36,026 nucleotides of DNA. Origin: an uncultured Flavobacteriaceae bacterium (GTDB lineage: Bacteria > Bacteroidota > Bacteroidia > Flavobacteriales > Flavobacteriaceae). The first letter of the stretch is position 1. Every line of letters begins with the position of its first letter. The position numbers were made by a program, and so were the translations under genes. The DNA lies in contig CAJVZM010000005.1 of NCBI GenBank assembly GCA_913020475.1, positions 1-36,026 on the forward strand. The letters run 5' to 3'. Shown in pieces: positions 6,036-11,446 of this stretch. A model generated the notes under the pieces. The model worked only from the letters and a program-made list of their open reading frames with translations. It searched no databases and was not told the origin of the DNA.

Positions 6036-8102
6036 ATGAGCGCAGTCCCTCAATACATAAATAGAGAAATTAGTTGGCTCGACTTTAACGCTCGTGTTTT
6101 ACAAGAGGCGAATGATGAAAATGTACCCCTTTTGGAACGCCTTCGATTTTTGGGAATTTTCTCTAATAATTTAGATGAATTTTTTCAGGTGAGATATGCG
6201 ACCGTAAAGCGCATTTCTCAATCCAGTAAAACGGGTAAAAGAGTTTTTGCAGGGAGAAGTGCAGAGGCTTTACTTAAAGAAATCACTAATAAAGTAATCG
6301 ATCTTCAGGATGAAAGCCTCAAAACCCTCAACGGTATCTATAAAGAGATGGAGCGGGAAAACATCTTTTTTATTGATCAAAATGAAGTAAAACCTGATCA
6401 GGAAGATTTTTTGAAAAATTATTTTATTCAAAATATTAACCCTGCTTTGGTGACCATCATTTTATCCCAAAAAAGAGATCAAGATTTGTCTTCCAATAAA
6501 GCTTTTTTGATCGTAACTATGACCCTGGATAAGGCATCGGAAGCGCAAAACATATATGCGCTGATCGAGATGCCTAAAGATACCAAAAGGTTTGTTGTAT
6601 TGCCTAAGAACAGTGATGGAAAGCAATACATAATGATGTTGGACGATCTGATTCGCTACCATTTTCATATGATCTTCAGCTTTTTTAACTATAAATTTAT
6701 TCAGGCGCATATGGTAAAAATTACTCGTGATGCCGAATTGGATTTAGAGGAAGATGTATCCATCAGTTATGTAGAAAAAATAACCCTTAGCGTAAAAGAT
6801 AGAATGATCAGTGATCCTGTAAGACTGGTTTATGACAAAGAAATTCCAGAACATACCCTTTGCTTTGTAATGGATAAACTCAAAATAGCCTCTACCGACA
6901 GTCTTATTCCTGGAGGAAAATATCACCAGCGTAGGGATTATATGGATTTTCCCAGTTTGAATCGTCCGGATTTGTTGTATTCTTCTTTCCCTCCATTACC
7001 TCTACCGGGGCTCAGTTTGGAGGAAAATATATTGGATGCTATTGATCAAAAAGATTATTTGCTTTATGCACCTTATCAGGACTTTTCTTATGTCAACAAG
7101 TTTTTGAGGGAAGCGGCATTAGATCCAAAGGTCAAATCGATAAAAATTACCATCTACCGTTTGTCCAAGGCCTCCCATATAGCCAGTGCGCTAGTCAATG
7201 CAGCAAAAAACGGGAAAAAAGTTTTGGTCCAAATCGAACTTCAGGCTCGATTTGATGAAGAAAACAACATTAATTTTGCTGAACAGTTAGAGGCCGCAGG
7301 TGTACAATTAATTTTTGGGATTCCTGGACTAAAAGTCCACTCCAAGATATGTGTTATAGAACGAGAGCACAATAAGAAAAATAGACGATACGGTTTTGTA
7401 AGTACAGGAAATTTTAATGAATCCACAGCCAAGGTTTATACCGATTACACCCTATTTACCTCAGATCAAAAAATATTAAAAGAGGTCAACAAAGTCTTTA
7501 ATTTCCTTGAGGTGAGTTATAAAATTAAGAAGTACAAACATTTGATCGTTTCCCCTCACTATACCGCCTCAATTATATCAAAGCTAATCGATAATGAAAT
7601 TCAAAATCACAAAAAGGGACTTCCATCTGGAATTTCTCTCAAACTGAATAATATTACTAATTATCCTTTAGTAGATAAACTGTATGAAGCCAGCCAAGCT
7701 GGAGTCAAGATTAAAATGATTGTTAGAGGTATTTGTTGTCTGGTTCCCGGAGTAAAAGGATTGAGTGAAAACATCTCTGTGATCAGTGTGGTGGATAAAT
7801 TTTTGGAACATCCTCGAGTCCTTATCTTTGAAAGTGAAGGAAAAAAGAAAATTTACTTGTCCTCTGCAGACTTTATGACGCGAAATATTGAAAATAGGGT
7901 GGAAGTAGCCTGTCCTATTTATGATAAAGAATTACAACAGCAAATTTTAGATACTTTTGAACTTTCATGGAAGGATAATACCAAGGCCAGGACAGTAAAT
8001 CAACATCCGCAAAACAAAATTGTTAATCCTCAATCGGGCGAGACCAAACAACGCTCCCAATGGACCATTTATGCATATTATAAAAATAAATTGAACTCAT
8101 AG
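6036..8102 (+). CDS. ppk1: Polyphosphate kinase 1
   Basis: Reversibly transfers the gamma-phosphate of ATP to polyphosphate. The N-terminal NREISWLDFNARVL is the PPK1 signature. The phospholipase-D-like C-terminal domains carry the phosphorylated histidine at H435 (GLKVHSKICVIE), which has the same number as in E. coli. The second E. coli histidine, H454, aligns with F454 (RYGFVSTGNFNE). The length is 688 residues, as in E. coli. The gene is followed after 4 bases by ppx, the classic synthesis/degradation pair, and preceded by a SixA-like phosphatase. Confidence 0.97.
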   Translation: MSAVPQYINREISWLDFNARVLQEANDENVPLLERLRFLGIFSNNLDEFFQVRYATVKRISQSSKTGKRVFAGRSAEALLKEITNKVIDLQDESLKTLNGIYKEMERENIFFIDQNEVKPDQEDFLKNYFIQNINPALVTIILSQKRDQDLSSNKAFLIVTMTLDKASEAQNIYALIEMPKDTKRFVVLPKNSDGKQYIMMLDDLIRYHFHMIFSFFNYKFIQAHMVKITRDAELDLEEDVSISYVEKITLSVKDRMISDPVRLVYDKEIPEHTLCFVMDKLKIASTDSLIPGGKYHQRRDYMDFPSLNRPDLLYSSFPPLPLPGLSLEENILDAIDQKDYLLYAPYQDFSYVNKFLREAALDPKVKSIKITIYRLSKASHIASALVNAAKNGKKVLVQIELQARFDEENNINFAEQLEAAGVQLIFGIPGLKVHSKICVIEREHNKKNRRYGFVSTGNFNESTAKVYTDYTLFTSDQKILKEVNKVFNFLEVSYKIKKYKHLIVSPHYTASIISKLIDNEIQNHKKGLPSGISLKLNNITNYPLVDKLYEASQAGVKIKMIVRGICCLVPGVKGLSENISVISVVDKFLEHPRVLIFESEGKKKIYLSSADFMTRNIENRVEVACPIYDKELQQQILDTFELSWKDNTKARTVNQHPQNKIVNPQSGETKQRSQWTIYAYYKNKLNS

Positions 8103-8106
8103 GATT

Positions 8107-9000
8107 TTGAGAATTAAAAAATATGCCGCTATAGATATTGGTTCCAATGCCATGCGTGTATTGATTTCAAATGTCCTGGAAACTAGAGAGGAAGTACATT
8201 TTCAGAAAAACGCTTTGGTAAGGGCACCCATCCGTTTGGGTGAGGATTCTTTTACGTTTGGGGAAATATCCAAAAAAAACCTCAAGCGCATGATCAGCGC
8301 TATGAAGGCCTTCAAACTGTTGATGAAAGTTCATGAGGTTTCTCACTACCAAGCTTATGCCACTTCTGCATTGAGGGAGGCAAACAACAGAAGGGAAGTT
8401 GTCGAACAAGTGAAAAAAAAGGCTGGAATCAAAATCGAAATTATTGATGGAAGAAAAGAAGCCGAAATCATTTCGAACAGTAAAATTTCCGATTTTTTAA
8501 ATACCCAAAAAACCTTTCTTTTTGTGGACGTTGGTGGAGGAAGTACCGAATTCACTTTTATCAATGAGGGAAAAAGAGTTTGTTCCAAATCGTTCAAAAT
8601 TGGGACTGTTAGACTGATCAATAATCTGGTTCATGACAGGGTTTGGGAGGCCATAAGAAATTGGATCACTAAAAAGGCCAAACCTTATCATAAGATAACA
8701 CTTATGGGATCTGGTGGAAACATCAACAAGCTCTTCAAACTATCCAATATTAGGGAGGGAAAACCGCTATCTGTGATTAAGCTTAATCAGATGTTTTTGG
8801 AATTGGAATCACTCAGTTATGAAGACCGAATCGTAAAGTTTGAGCTTAACCCTGACCGAGCGGACGTAATCATTCCCGCAGCAAGAATTTACCTTAAAGC
8901 CTTGGAATGGAGTGGTGGGCAAAAAATCTATGTTCCCAAGTTTGGACTTTCGGATGGAATGATCAAGTATATGCACAAAAATAAACGTAAAAAAATCTAA
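8107..9000 (+). CDS. ppx: Exopolyphosphatase (Ppx/GppA family), TTG start
   Basis: An ASKHA-fold phosphatase that removes terminal phosphate from polyphosphate or from pppGpp. The phosphate-1 loop AAIDIGSNAMRVLIS is at the N-terminus and the phosphate-2 loop FVDVGGGSTEFTF is near residue 140. A third glycine-rich turn is TLMGSGGNINKL. Its 297 residues match the short Ppx forms without the extra C-terminal HD-like domain. The start is TTG at 8107: the conserved N-terminus begins right there, and the next ATG (in GSNAMRV) would delete the phosphate loop. It is 4 bases after ppk and last in the train. Confidence 0.93.
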   Translation: MRIKKYAAIDIGSNAMRVLISNVLETREEVHFQKNALVRAPIRLGEDSFTFGEISKKNLKRMISAMKAFKLLMKVHEVSHYQAYATSALREANNRREVVEQVKKKAGIKIEIIDGRKEAEIISNSKISDFLNTQKTFLFVDVGGGSTEFTFINEGKRVCSKSFKIGTVRLINNLVHDRVWEAIRNWITKKAKPYHKITLMGSGGNINKLFKLSNIREGKPLSVIKLNQMFLELESLSYEDRIVKFELNPDRADVIIPAARIYLKALEWSGGQKIYVPKFGLSDGMIKYMHKNKRKKI

Positions 9001-9320: not shown

Positions 9321-11047
9321 TTAAATATCTAAATCAAATACATTTTTTAGCACCTCAATATCGGGATTTATTTTTTTTAAGTAATCGTATTTTTCTTTAA
9401 CACCACAAAGATATTCATCACTTTTTTGGGTTACCACTTTAATTTCGAAAGTAATTTTATAGTTGTTTAAAGCTTTACTGAGGAAGCACATAAGGTTTGG
9501 CAGTTCTTGGGTCAATTCCAGTTTACTTAGGGAACTCGAGGTTTTCAATAGTATTTTATGATCGCCCAAAAGTTCGGGTTGACTCATTTCAAGCTGGGCA
9601 GCGATATTGTTTTCTCCTAGATTGTTTTTTTCTTCTATGTAGGTTTTCCAAACTGTCGTGAAGGCCTCTTGGGTGAATTTATCATTAGACTCATTAATAG
9701 AAATTTTCTTTGAGGATGACTTTCTTTCAGCTTCTTTTTTTAATCCAATACTGGATAGGGATAGGCTGGAAACCCCATCTTCCATATCAGGTTTTTTAAT
9801 ATTTATTTTGGGATGAGTATAAGCTTGATTATCTTCCGATATTGACACTTTGTATTGGGGCTGCGATTGATCTTTTTTTATAGCTGTGTATTCTACAGGG
9901 GTTTCTGCAACTACCGAATTTTTTGGTTCGGAGGCTTTTGAGCTTCGCGCTTTAAAGTGGCTCATCGGGATGATAAATTGATTTACTTTCCCCCGAAATG
10001 GAGAGAGGACATTTGCATGAGACATAATTCAATCAATAATCTTTTGTTTTTGGCATTTCTATAATCTAATTCACATTTACTGTTCAAATCAATCGCATTT
10101 AACAGTAATGGAAGTGGTGCTCTCAACGTCTGTTCCTTAAATTTTTCCTTAATACCCTCACTGACTTCGAGCAAGGGAAGGGTTTTGTTTTCTTTACTGA
10201 CCATCAAATTTCTGAAATGGGTTCCCAATCCTGTAATGAACTGTAACTCATCAAATCCTTTTTGGAGCAATCCGTCAAAAGCCAATAGCAAGGAGGGAAT
10301 GTCATGGTTTAGAATCAATGATGTAATGTAAAGAAAGGTCTCATGATCGAGTATATTTAGGTTTTCGGATACGGATTTTACAGTTAGACTTCGGTCAGTA
10401 AAACTAACCATGCGGTCATAGATGGACAACGCATCTCTTAGCGCACCATCTGCTTTTTGAGCGATTAAATCCAGCGCTTCCTCTTCGAATTCAATTTTTT
10501 GATCCTCTGCTATTTTTTTTAAATGTGCTCTGCAATCTTTTAAACTTATTCTCTTAAAATCATAGATTTGACAGCGGGAGAGTATGGTTGGGATAATCTT
10601 TTGTTTTTCTGTGGTGGCCAGAATAAAAATGACGTGCCTTGGTGGTTCCTCCAAGGTTTTTAGAAAGGCGTTGAATGCTCCTAGAGAAAGCATATGTACC
10701 TCATCAATGATATAAATTTTGTGAGTACCCACTTGTGGTGGAATTCTCACTTGCTCGTTTAGGGAGCGGATGTCATCTACAGAGTTATTGGATGCAGCAT
10801 CCAATTCAAAAATATTAAAAGCGAAGTCCTCATTGGAATCGTATTTTTCCTGACTGTTTATCTTTTTTGCTAGTATACGAGCGCAAGAAGTCTTTCCAAC
10901 CCCTCTCGGACCACAAAAAAGTAATGCTTGAGCCAATTGATTTTTTTTGATGGCGTTTTCCAATGTCTGCGTAATGGACTTTTGACCTACGACTTCCTCA
11001 AAGGTTTGAGGGCGATATTTTAAGGCCGAGACAATGTAAGTTTCCAT
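9321..11047 (-). CDS. dnaX: DNA polymerase III tau subunit, joined product across a -1 frameshift
   Basis: DnaX is the AAA+ subunit of the clamp loader; the long tau form also ties the polymerase core to it. The protein starts at ATG 11047 (METYIVSALKYRPQTFEEVVGQ). A longer reading from 11131 adds 28 residues without family resemblance. Walker A is GPRGVGKT (46-53), Walker B is IIDEVHM and the arginine-finger motif is LSRCQ. The four-cysteine zinc module of E. coli DnaX is absent. The first frame stops at 9983; the C-terminal part continues in the -1 frame to 9321. Joined at the heptamer 9986-9992, the product is 575 residues, close to what I recall for flavobacterial DnaX. The second part ends NPDIEVLKNVFDLD, a typical ending. 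The frame break could also be a one-base sequence error. Confidence 0.85.
9983..11047 (-). CDS. dnaX: DnaX short, gamma-like product (unshifted frame)
   Basis: Read without a shift, dnaX gives 354 residues ending LHFGGK, immediately before UAA (9983-9985). This covers the AAA+ ATPase domains and the helical domain III needed to oligomerise in the clamp loader, but lacks the tau-specific C-terminus. That is the domain content of E. coli gamma. Whether the cell makes both forms depends on the frameshift being real. Confidence 0.6.
   Translation of the reverse strand: METYIVSALKYRPQTFEEVVGQKSITQTLENAIKKNQLAQALLFCGPRGVGKTSCARILAKKINSQEKYDSNEDFAFNIFELDAASNNSVDDIRSLNEQVRIPPQVGTHKIYIIDEVHMLSLGAFNAFLKTLEEPPRHVIFILATTEKQKIIPTILSRCQIYDFKRISLKDCRAHLKKIAEDQKIEFEEEALDLIAQKADGALRDALSIYDRMVSFTDRSLTVKSVSENLNILDHETFLYITSLILNHDIPSLLLAFDGLLQKGFDELQFITGLGTHFRNLMVSKENKTLPLLEVSEGIKEKFKEQTLRAPLPLLLNAIDLNSKCELDYRNAKNKRLLIELCLMQMSSLHFGGK
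9986..9992 (-). promoter_or_regulatory. Candidate -1 ribosomal frameshift heptamer G-GGA-AAG in dnaX
   Basis: On the minus strand the zero-frame codons are TTC GGG GGA AAG TAA. The heptamer GGGAAAG is in the exact X-XXY-YYZ phase: GGA and AAG can slip to GGG and AAA, with good re-pairing at both sites. The stop follows directly. After slippage the next codon is GTA and the frame stays open for 221 codons. I found no strong downstream stem-loop and no upstream Shine-Dalgarno-like stimulator. Confidence 0.55.
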
Positions 11048-11136
11048 ATCTAGTAGTAACTTAGCAAAGATAAAAATTGAAAAATGTCCATGCTGGGCTG
11101 GACAAATAAATTCATCCCAAATTATCAACAAAAGAC

Positions 11137-11144: not shown

Positions 11145-11149
11145 TATCT

Positions 11150-11438
11150 GGCAGGCTGTCTTATTGCTCTTGTTCACAAGAGAGGAAAGTCCGGACACCA
11201 CAGAGCAGTATAGCGGGTAACGCCCGTCGTTCGCTTCGGCGAATAGGACCAGTGCAACAGAAAGCAAGTACAGTTTGGCTGTAGTGAAATCAGGTAAACT
11301 CTATGCGGTGCAACGCCAAATAAGATTGCGTTTGAGGATGGCTCGTCCGATGCAATTGGGTAGGCGGCTAGAATGTTGTAGCAATGCAACATCCAGATAA
11401 ATAATAAGACTCGACAGAATCCGGCTTATAAGCCTGCC
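11150..11438 (+). ncRNA. rnpB: RNase P RNA, bacterial class A
   Basis: The catalytic RNA that cleaves the 5' leader of precursor tRNAs. Conserved blocks are present in order: GAGGAAAGTCCGGAC at 11182-11196, GTGCAACAGAAAGCAAG near 11252-11268, and AGATAAATAATAAGAC at 11395-11410 followed by CGACAGAATCCGGCTTAT. The ends pair as helix P1: GGCAGGCT (11150-11157) with AGCCTGCC (11431-11438). A T run follows. At about 289 bases it is compact. Open frames over this locus are chance. Confidence 0.95.
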
Positions 11439-11446
11439 TTTTTTTT
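11431..11446 (+). terminator. P1 3' strand plus T run ending rnpB
   Basis: The 3' arm of P1 is followed by eight Ts (11439-11446). The T run touches the stop codon of the convergent rsmD (11445-11447), so the two transcripts end on each other. Confidence 0.5.

Follow-up and report, generated by a model that had tools for sequence, protein, structure and literature searches.

A dnaX gene conserved as two overlapping frames in a genus of Flavobacteriaceae, with a proposed separate start for the tau tail

The gamma/tau pair encoded by dnaX is reached by ribosomal frameshifting, transcriptional slippage or proteolysis, as set out in a 2016 review that covers the Escherichia coli, Thermus and Caulobacter routes and describes the making of tau itself by frameshifting in fewer bacteria (PMC5009743). 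Antonov et al. reported tau made by a shift as a new dnaX organisation in 2013, with 17 two-ORF dnaX genes that need a −1 shift for tau, 12 of them with poly-A (PMC3711429). In E. coli, fused tau tethers the polymerases to the clamp loader (PMC3290774).

The dnaX gene analysed here lies in a 36,026-nucleotide stretch of DNA ("the window") of contig CAJVZM010000005.1 from an uncultured Flavobacteriaceae bacterium. Like the two-ORF genes of Antonov et al., it has an early end to ORF1 and a tail in frame −1, and tau needs both frames; unlike that set, where 12 of the 17 have A7–A10 (PMC3711429), none of the 18 sequences of its genus has a run of at least eight As, and the genus has a conserved ATG in frame −1. 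With the E. coli −1 frameshift (A_AAA_AAG plus stem-loop) the locus shares the gene, the direction and the position between the gamma part and the tail, but the roles of the two products are reversed, the heptamer is unconserved and no strong hairpin follows in the three congeners folded; a signal of this kind is present in two members of the order outside the genus, L056 and L191. The slippage of Thermus thermophilus dnaX on A9 is resembled by the A10 run common in the order, which the genus lacks. In bacterial overlapping gene pairs the second ORF can start inside the first in another frame. The proposed ORF2 start of the genus likewise lies inside ORF1, with a 43-nt overlap and an A at −3; unlike ordinary overlapping pairs, fission here would split a replisome subunit that works as one chain where studied. 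An earlier note on this DNA had considered a shift that makes the long form to be unusual. That much was reported in 2013 (PMC3711429) and reviewed in 2016 (PMC5009743); what is unusual here is the lack of an A-run and the conserved second start in its place.

On the minus strand the gene reads ...CTC CAT TTC GGG GGA AAG TAA, with the stop at 9983 after 354 codons, and frame −1 stays open for 221 codons beyond it, down to 9321. ORF1 is taken from the ATG at 11047; a TTG at 11131 is in the same frame. The features are as follows, with negative codon numbers counted back from the ORF1 stop.

9983 to 11047, minus strand: ORF1, the N-terminal part of DnaX, domains I–III (gamma-like), 354 codons with C-terminus ...MSSLHFGGK and stop; from profile matches.
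9321 to 10025, minus strand: ORF2, the tau-tail gene in frame −1, with a proposed start of its own at ATG 10025–10023, 234 codons; from homology, dN/dS and an AF2 model.
10022 to 10027, minus strand: ORF1 codons −14/−13 (TTA TGT), which contain the −1-frame ATG; ATG in 18 of 18 genus sequences and both sister-genus species.
9998 to 10003, minus strand: codons −6 (CTC, invariant in 18 of 18) and −5 (CAT in 16, CTT in 2), where coding constraint moves from frame 0 to frame −1; from substitution counts.
9989 to 10004, minus strand: a short predicted hairpin of 5 bp, possibly a relic of one that many relatives have just ahead of their A-run; from folding.
9986 to 9992, minus strand: the GGGAAAG heptamer, in phase, unconserved and probably not the mechanism; from the sequence and the genus comparison.
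9983 to 10000, minus strand: the junction codons CAT 10000–9998, TTC 9997–9995, GGG 9994–9992, GGA 9991–9989, AAG 9988–9986 and TAA 9985–9983; from the sequence.

The earlier note read these letters correctly: a zero frame that closes with GGG GGA AAG TAA on a 354-residue gamma-like product, five Gs at 9990–9994, GGGAAAG in exact X_XXY_YYZ phase (G_GGA_AAG, 9992–9986) and a 221-codon tau-like tail in frame −1, a split now seen to be conserved across the genus. The stretch it singled out took in the ATG at 10025–10023, but its text was silent on that start for a second ORF and on the A-run of relatives. The window belongs to a draft genome of 1.5 Mb, 80% complete, in which the dnaX query found no second dnaX, only five further weak matches (E 1.8e-10 to 3.6e-5); one plasmid search with the dnaX region gave no match. 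As to the neighbourhood, an RNase P RNA (class A, 205.9 bits; window 11148–11444, plus strand) lies divergently, about 100 bp upstream of dnaX, and a polyphosphate pair, polyphosphate kinase followed by a Ppx/GppA phosphatase, adjoins it (window 6036–9000, plus strand).

Read from the TTG at 11131, the ORF1 frame matches NCBIfam TIGR02397 at 8.3e-114 over model positions 1–354 of 355 and PRK14971 at 3.3e-172. The Pfam families DNA_pol3_delta2 and DNAX_ATPase_lid are above cut-off in ORF1, and DNA_pol3_gamma3 is below it (18.3 of 24.4 bits). Residues 30–234 of ORF2 match PRK14971 positions 408–613 (3.1e-19; 69 bits for this fragment, where the full-length cut-off is 685), and the tail aligns with those of 56 relatives at 16–75% identity. 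The tail alignment omits L011 (which contains a stretch of Ns), L021 and L024. Pfam gave nothing significant on the tail, and among the four weak matches (best E 0.0084) that this alignment drew from the PDB sequences none is a DnaX. The AF2 model of ORF2 has a mean pLDDT of 74.9, rising to ~90 in residues 111–200, and the C-terminal domain is predicted with good confidence. Compared with known structures for a polymerase-binding domain V fold, the tail model has no Foldseek match at E 0.001 or better; the E. coli tau C-terminal domain appears weakly at ranks 2 and 6 (5fku_E, E 0.13; 2aya, E 0.27). Folds like DnaA domain I and DciA head the VIA-align list, the best being 4tps_B (Z 8.7, rmsd 2.6, 80 aligned), with the DnaA N-terminal domain 2e0g at Z 8.0 (rmsd 2.6, 78 aligned). 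With the matches to E. coli tau weak and other folds leading the VIA-align list, the identity of the tail rests on sequence homology. The tail begins with SPFRG or SPFRR in the genus and its sister.

Elsewhere in DnaX, a cysteine-rich module between Walker A and DAAS binds zinc. This module is missing here (window 10790–10920, minus strand): the interval has a single Cys in all 17 genus rows and in 99 of 105 other rows, and four to five in the six others, one of the 123 rows having no Walker match.

The split is a property of the whole genus as sampled. Among 22 genomes, 18 have a dnaX match at the limit used (the four without one are all 65%–69% complete), and in all 18, the window included, the zero frame ends at the aligned codon after domain III and a tau tail of 188–221 codons continues in frame −1. 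The 188-codon tail is that of L011, with its N stretch, and second records of genus members (L061–L071) are excluded from the counts. The tail evolves under purifying selection, with dN/dS of 0.17–0.40 in six pairs without L011; three pairs with it (0.44–0.57) were disregarded.

Relatives outside the genus seem to join the two frames by slippage on a long A-run. Of 50 short-frame dnaX genes sampled in the rest of its family and order, 47 carry eight or more As in a row in the last 45 nt ahead of the stop (1 A8, 34 A10, 12 A11). The three exceptions are L056 (A6), L089 and L060, the last counted although it is truncated, tail-less and from a 0.3-Mb genome. Genes classed as unsplit have a run of at least nine As in 54 of 55 cases (L053 lacks it), a class that includes L032 and L049, both cut by a contig end; these two and L192 end before any stop is visible. 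A second draw of 158 order genomes, which overlaps the first (L166, L139) and leaves out the partial matches G545, G549 and G495 and the 476–539-codon frames of genus g257, gave 43 new genes with open frames of 361–407 codons. Of the 42 that were readable, 41 have a run of at least eight As, the exception being L191 (A6). The tail frame is mostly −1 and lies in +1 in the A-run genes L041, L151, L186 and L193, so RNA polymerase slippage fits better than ribosomal −1 shifting. The two A6 genes, both of family f7, read A_AAA_AAG TAG with predicted hairpins 6 nt (L056) and 5 nt (L191) past the heptamer; by their sequence these are E. coli-like frameshift signals with reversed roles, which would make tau rather than gamma.

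In the window's genus, the region 45 nt before the stop contains A3–A5 in 18 of 18 sequences and a run of at least eight As in none, and A-run slippage was rejected for the genus on this count. Its sister genus, so placed by the tree (SH-aLRT 88) and represented by two species, has A8 in L084 and an interrupted run, AAAACAAAG, in L089. The ATG in frame −1 and the SPFRR motif are common to these two species.

Many of the runs in relatives are preceded by a hairpin. The segments before runs fall in the top tenth of their own gene for folding energy in 47 of 102 cases, compared to ~10 expected, and a stem of at least five pairs ending at most 2 nt from the run is found in 27 of 102, compared to 9.5% in shuffles; stems of at least six pairs at any upstream position show hardly any enrichment (34 of 102 vs 27%). 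In these tallies the run used for L056, one of the 27, is not its junction run. A terminator-like hairpin of up to 8 bp with a 4-nt loop adjoins the A-run in many Flavobacteriaceae (L026, L028, L030, L034, L036 and others), the same stem being built from different sequences, and hairpin plus run form a candidate site for stem-loop-aided transcriptional slippage. Penno and colleagues reportedly described in 2015 such slippage on heteropolymeric runs behind a stem-loop. The window's hairpin folds at −5.8 kcal/mol (rank 0.06 within its own gene), and in all 17 genus sequences tested (L024 excluded for Ns) the hairpin has a rank in its gene no worse than 0.21. It is weaker, at −3.8 to −4.2 kcal/mol, in L016, L020, L022 and L023.

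Substitution patterns locate the change of coding frame. By parsimony on the tree of the 18 genus sequences, frame-0 positions 1/2/3 changed 14/0/23 times in codons −20 to −7 and 0/10/7 times in codons −5 to −1, which is the pattern of frame −1 (positions 2 and 3 compared by Fisher test, p = 2e-5). Between the two lies the invariant CTC at codon −6. Because the pattern switches there, constraint on frame −1 already acts before the proposed heptamer is reached, and the frame there encodes Pro and Phe in 18 of 18 sequences and Arg in 17 of 18 by way of cgg, cga, aga and cgt (Trp in L015).

The ATG in frame −1 at codons −14/−13 is followed by a −1 ORF of at least 100 codons in 18 of 18 genus sequences and both sister-genus species. 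The same combination at that codon is found in two of 48 other split genes (L047 and L050 of family f9, both with A-runs) and in none of 55 unsplit genes, two of which are cut by a contig end. The triplet by itself, with no long ORF, is not uncommon in relatives (4 of 48 other split genes, 6 of 55 unsplit genes and 6 of 12 in a genus with A10 runs), which counts against the start. Within the genus, no other −1-frame ATG reaches 90% conservation across the 18 sequences.

The codons around this ATG are frozen. Third-position change is absent from just two of 25 invariant Leu columns (Leu −14 and Leu −6), from one of 6 invariant Cys columns (Cys −13) and from one of 9 invariant Gln columns (Gln −10). 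Codons −15, −14, −13 and −10, picked after seeing the data, show 1 change compared to 14.5 expected (Poisson 8e-6). Leu −12, which covers ORF2 residues 2–3, is free to vary (seven third- and four first-position changes), as may fit an N-terminus. Lys −20, outside the overlap of the two ORFs, is also frozen. The A10 genus served as a control (12 species): these Leu, Cys and Gln codons vary there, and those that stay frozen belong to the hairpin, GCC TCT ATC and GAT GGA. The unchanging GCC TCT CTC of the window's genus may thus be a legacy of the hairpin; its frozen ATG is not. With codons −8 to −6 possibly held by the hairpin, it is mainly codons −15 to −10 that speak for a start. An A stands at −3 of the ATG in 17 of 18 genus sequences and at −6 in 3 of 18; in Flavobacterium johnsoniae, A at −3, −6, −12 and −13 is described as favouring initiation (PMC6847099). 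The surroundings of the ATG fold more weakly than 47%–100% of sites within the same gene, which is not clearly special. L084 retains the ATG alongside an A8 run, so this start codon is compatible with slippage. Taken as an overlapping gene, ORF2 has a start codon conserved in 18 of 18 and 2 of 2 sequences, suppressed synonymous change and frame-specific constraint in −1.

These observations lead us to favour, with modest confidence, a fission of dnaX in the genus into gamma and a separate tau tail with its own start. The sequence supports are the conserved split, the lack of both a long A-run and a conserved heptamer, the ATG present in all members, the suppressed synonymous change at it, the −1 constraint upstream of the heptamer and the purifying selection on the tail. 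ORF1 would yield a gamma-like ATPase ending after domain III, and ORF2, translated from the ATG at 10025–10023, would yield the tau C-terminal tail as a protein of ~234 residues; from the sequences we infer both initiation at this ATG and the absence of fused tau. Historically, an ancestor would have relied on an A10 run and transcriptional slippage to join the frames, and the clade would then have opened frame −1 upstream, gained the ATG and lost the run. Against fission stands the consideration that polymerase and clamp loader, tethered in E. coli by fused tau, would not be held together by a free tail. We hold only tentatively, with doubt slightly the heavier, that the clamp loader of the genus lacks covalent tau, gamma and the tail, which elsewhere binds polymerase and helicase, being two polypeptides from overlapping genes that are re-joined non-covalently or leave polymerase and clamp loader untethered. 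The SPFRG/SPFRR start of the tail is a candidate docking motif for such re-joining.

An unlikely but serious alternative is that fused tau is still made, by a non-canonical frameshift near CTC codon −6, perhaps plus some internal initiation. Fused tau is possible because in E. coli it is one chain and tethers the polymerases to the clamp loader (PMC3290774). The frame of constraint changes at this invariant codon and the hairpin stem persists in all 17 sequences tested; possible variants are a ribosomal −1 or +2 shift and slippage of RNA polymerase with the help of what is left of the hairpin. On inspection, though, there is no perfect −1 tRNA re-pairing and no repeat common to all 18 sequences (L016 reads TCACTCC), the hairpin is weaker in four members, and a shift leaves the frozen ATG codons −14/−13 and Gln −10 unexplained. 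A (CT)n hop at CTCTCTCC was dropped because the repeat is broken in L016.

We consider it improbable that transcriptional slippage persists in a heteropolymeric form of the A-run mechanism, at the short G/A block GGGGAAAA that follows the hairpin. The hairpin remnant and the slippage attributed to heteropolymeric runs behind a stem-loop would suit it. The block, however, is GAGGAGAAA in L017, L021 and L024 and GTGGAAAAG in L020, L022 and L023, where inspection allows realignment only with several mismatches, and the −1 constraint begins before it.

Programmed −1 ribosomal frameshifting at G_GGA_AAG, the mechanism suggested in the earlier note, is less probable still. It has in its favour the exact phase, the stop directly after and an in-phase G_GGA_AAA in L014 and L016. 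When the relatives are aligned, the stop is kept in 18 of 18 genus sequences, but GGGAAAG is found in the window only and G_GGA_AAR in 3 of 18. The other 15 have no X_XXY_YYZ heptamer at the junction, and genus members without either form read GGGGAAAAG, GGGGAAAAA, GAGGAGAAA, GAGGAAAAA or GTGGAAAAG. Folds of 77 nt from the heptamer in L007, L009 and L020 gave no strong hairpin (−12.8 to −14.0 kcal/mol), unlike the positive controls L056 and L191 (−28.0 and −20.8 kcal/mol after A_AAA_AAG), which bears out the earlier remark that no obvious stimulatory stem-loop is present. Nor does the consensus of an alignment reaching ~50 nt past the stop contain a downstream helix; its two weak helices are both upstream of or at the stop. 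(This alignment has 15 rows for 13 species: L062 repeats L009, L064 repeats L012, and L008, L011, L013 and L020 are represented by L061, L063, L065 and L069.) That constraint changes frame upstream of the heptamer counts against it independently of these heptamer counts. On this comparison the proposed mechanism is not supported, and the split itself is real.

Sequencing or assembly error, such as the loss of one base from the G run that had been offered as the plain alternative, or a decaying pseudogene, can practically be dismissed even for a draft genome at 80% completeness, given that all 18 genus genomes share the same split, that for 11 of them there are records from several different assembly projects, and that the tail dN/dS is 0.17–0.40.

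Within a single order, dnaX occurs unsplit, with poly-A and a tail in either −1 or +1, and with a signal like that of E. coli in which the two products swap roles, and in one clade a conserved second start is found where both the run and a conserved signal are missing. If the tail of that clade is free, it would be an exception to the rule of tau as the physical link between polymerase and clamp loader; if it is not free, a frameshift without a recognisable signal must exist.
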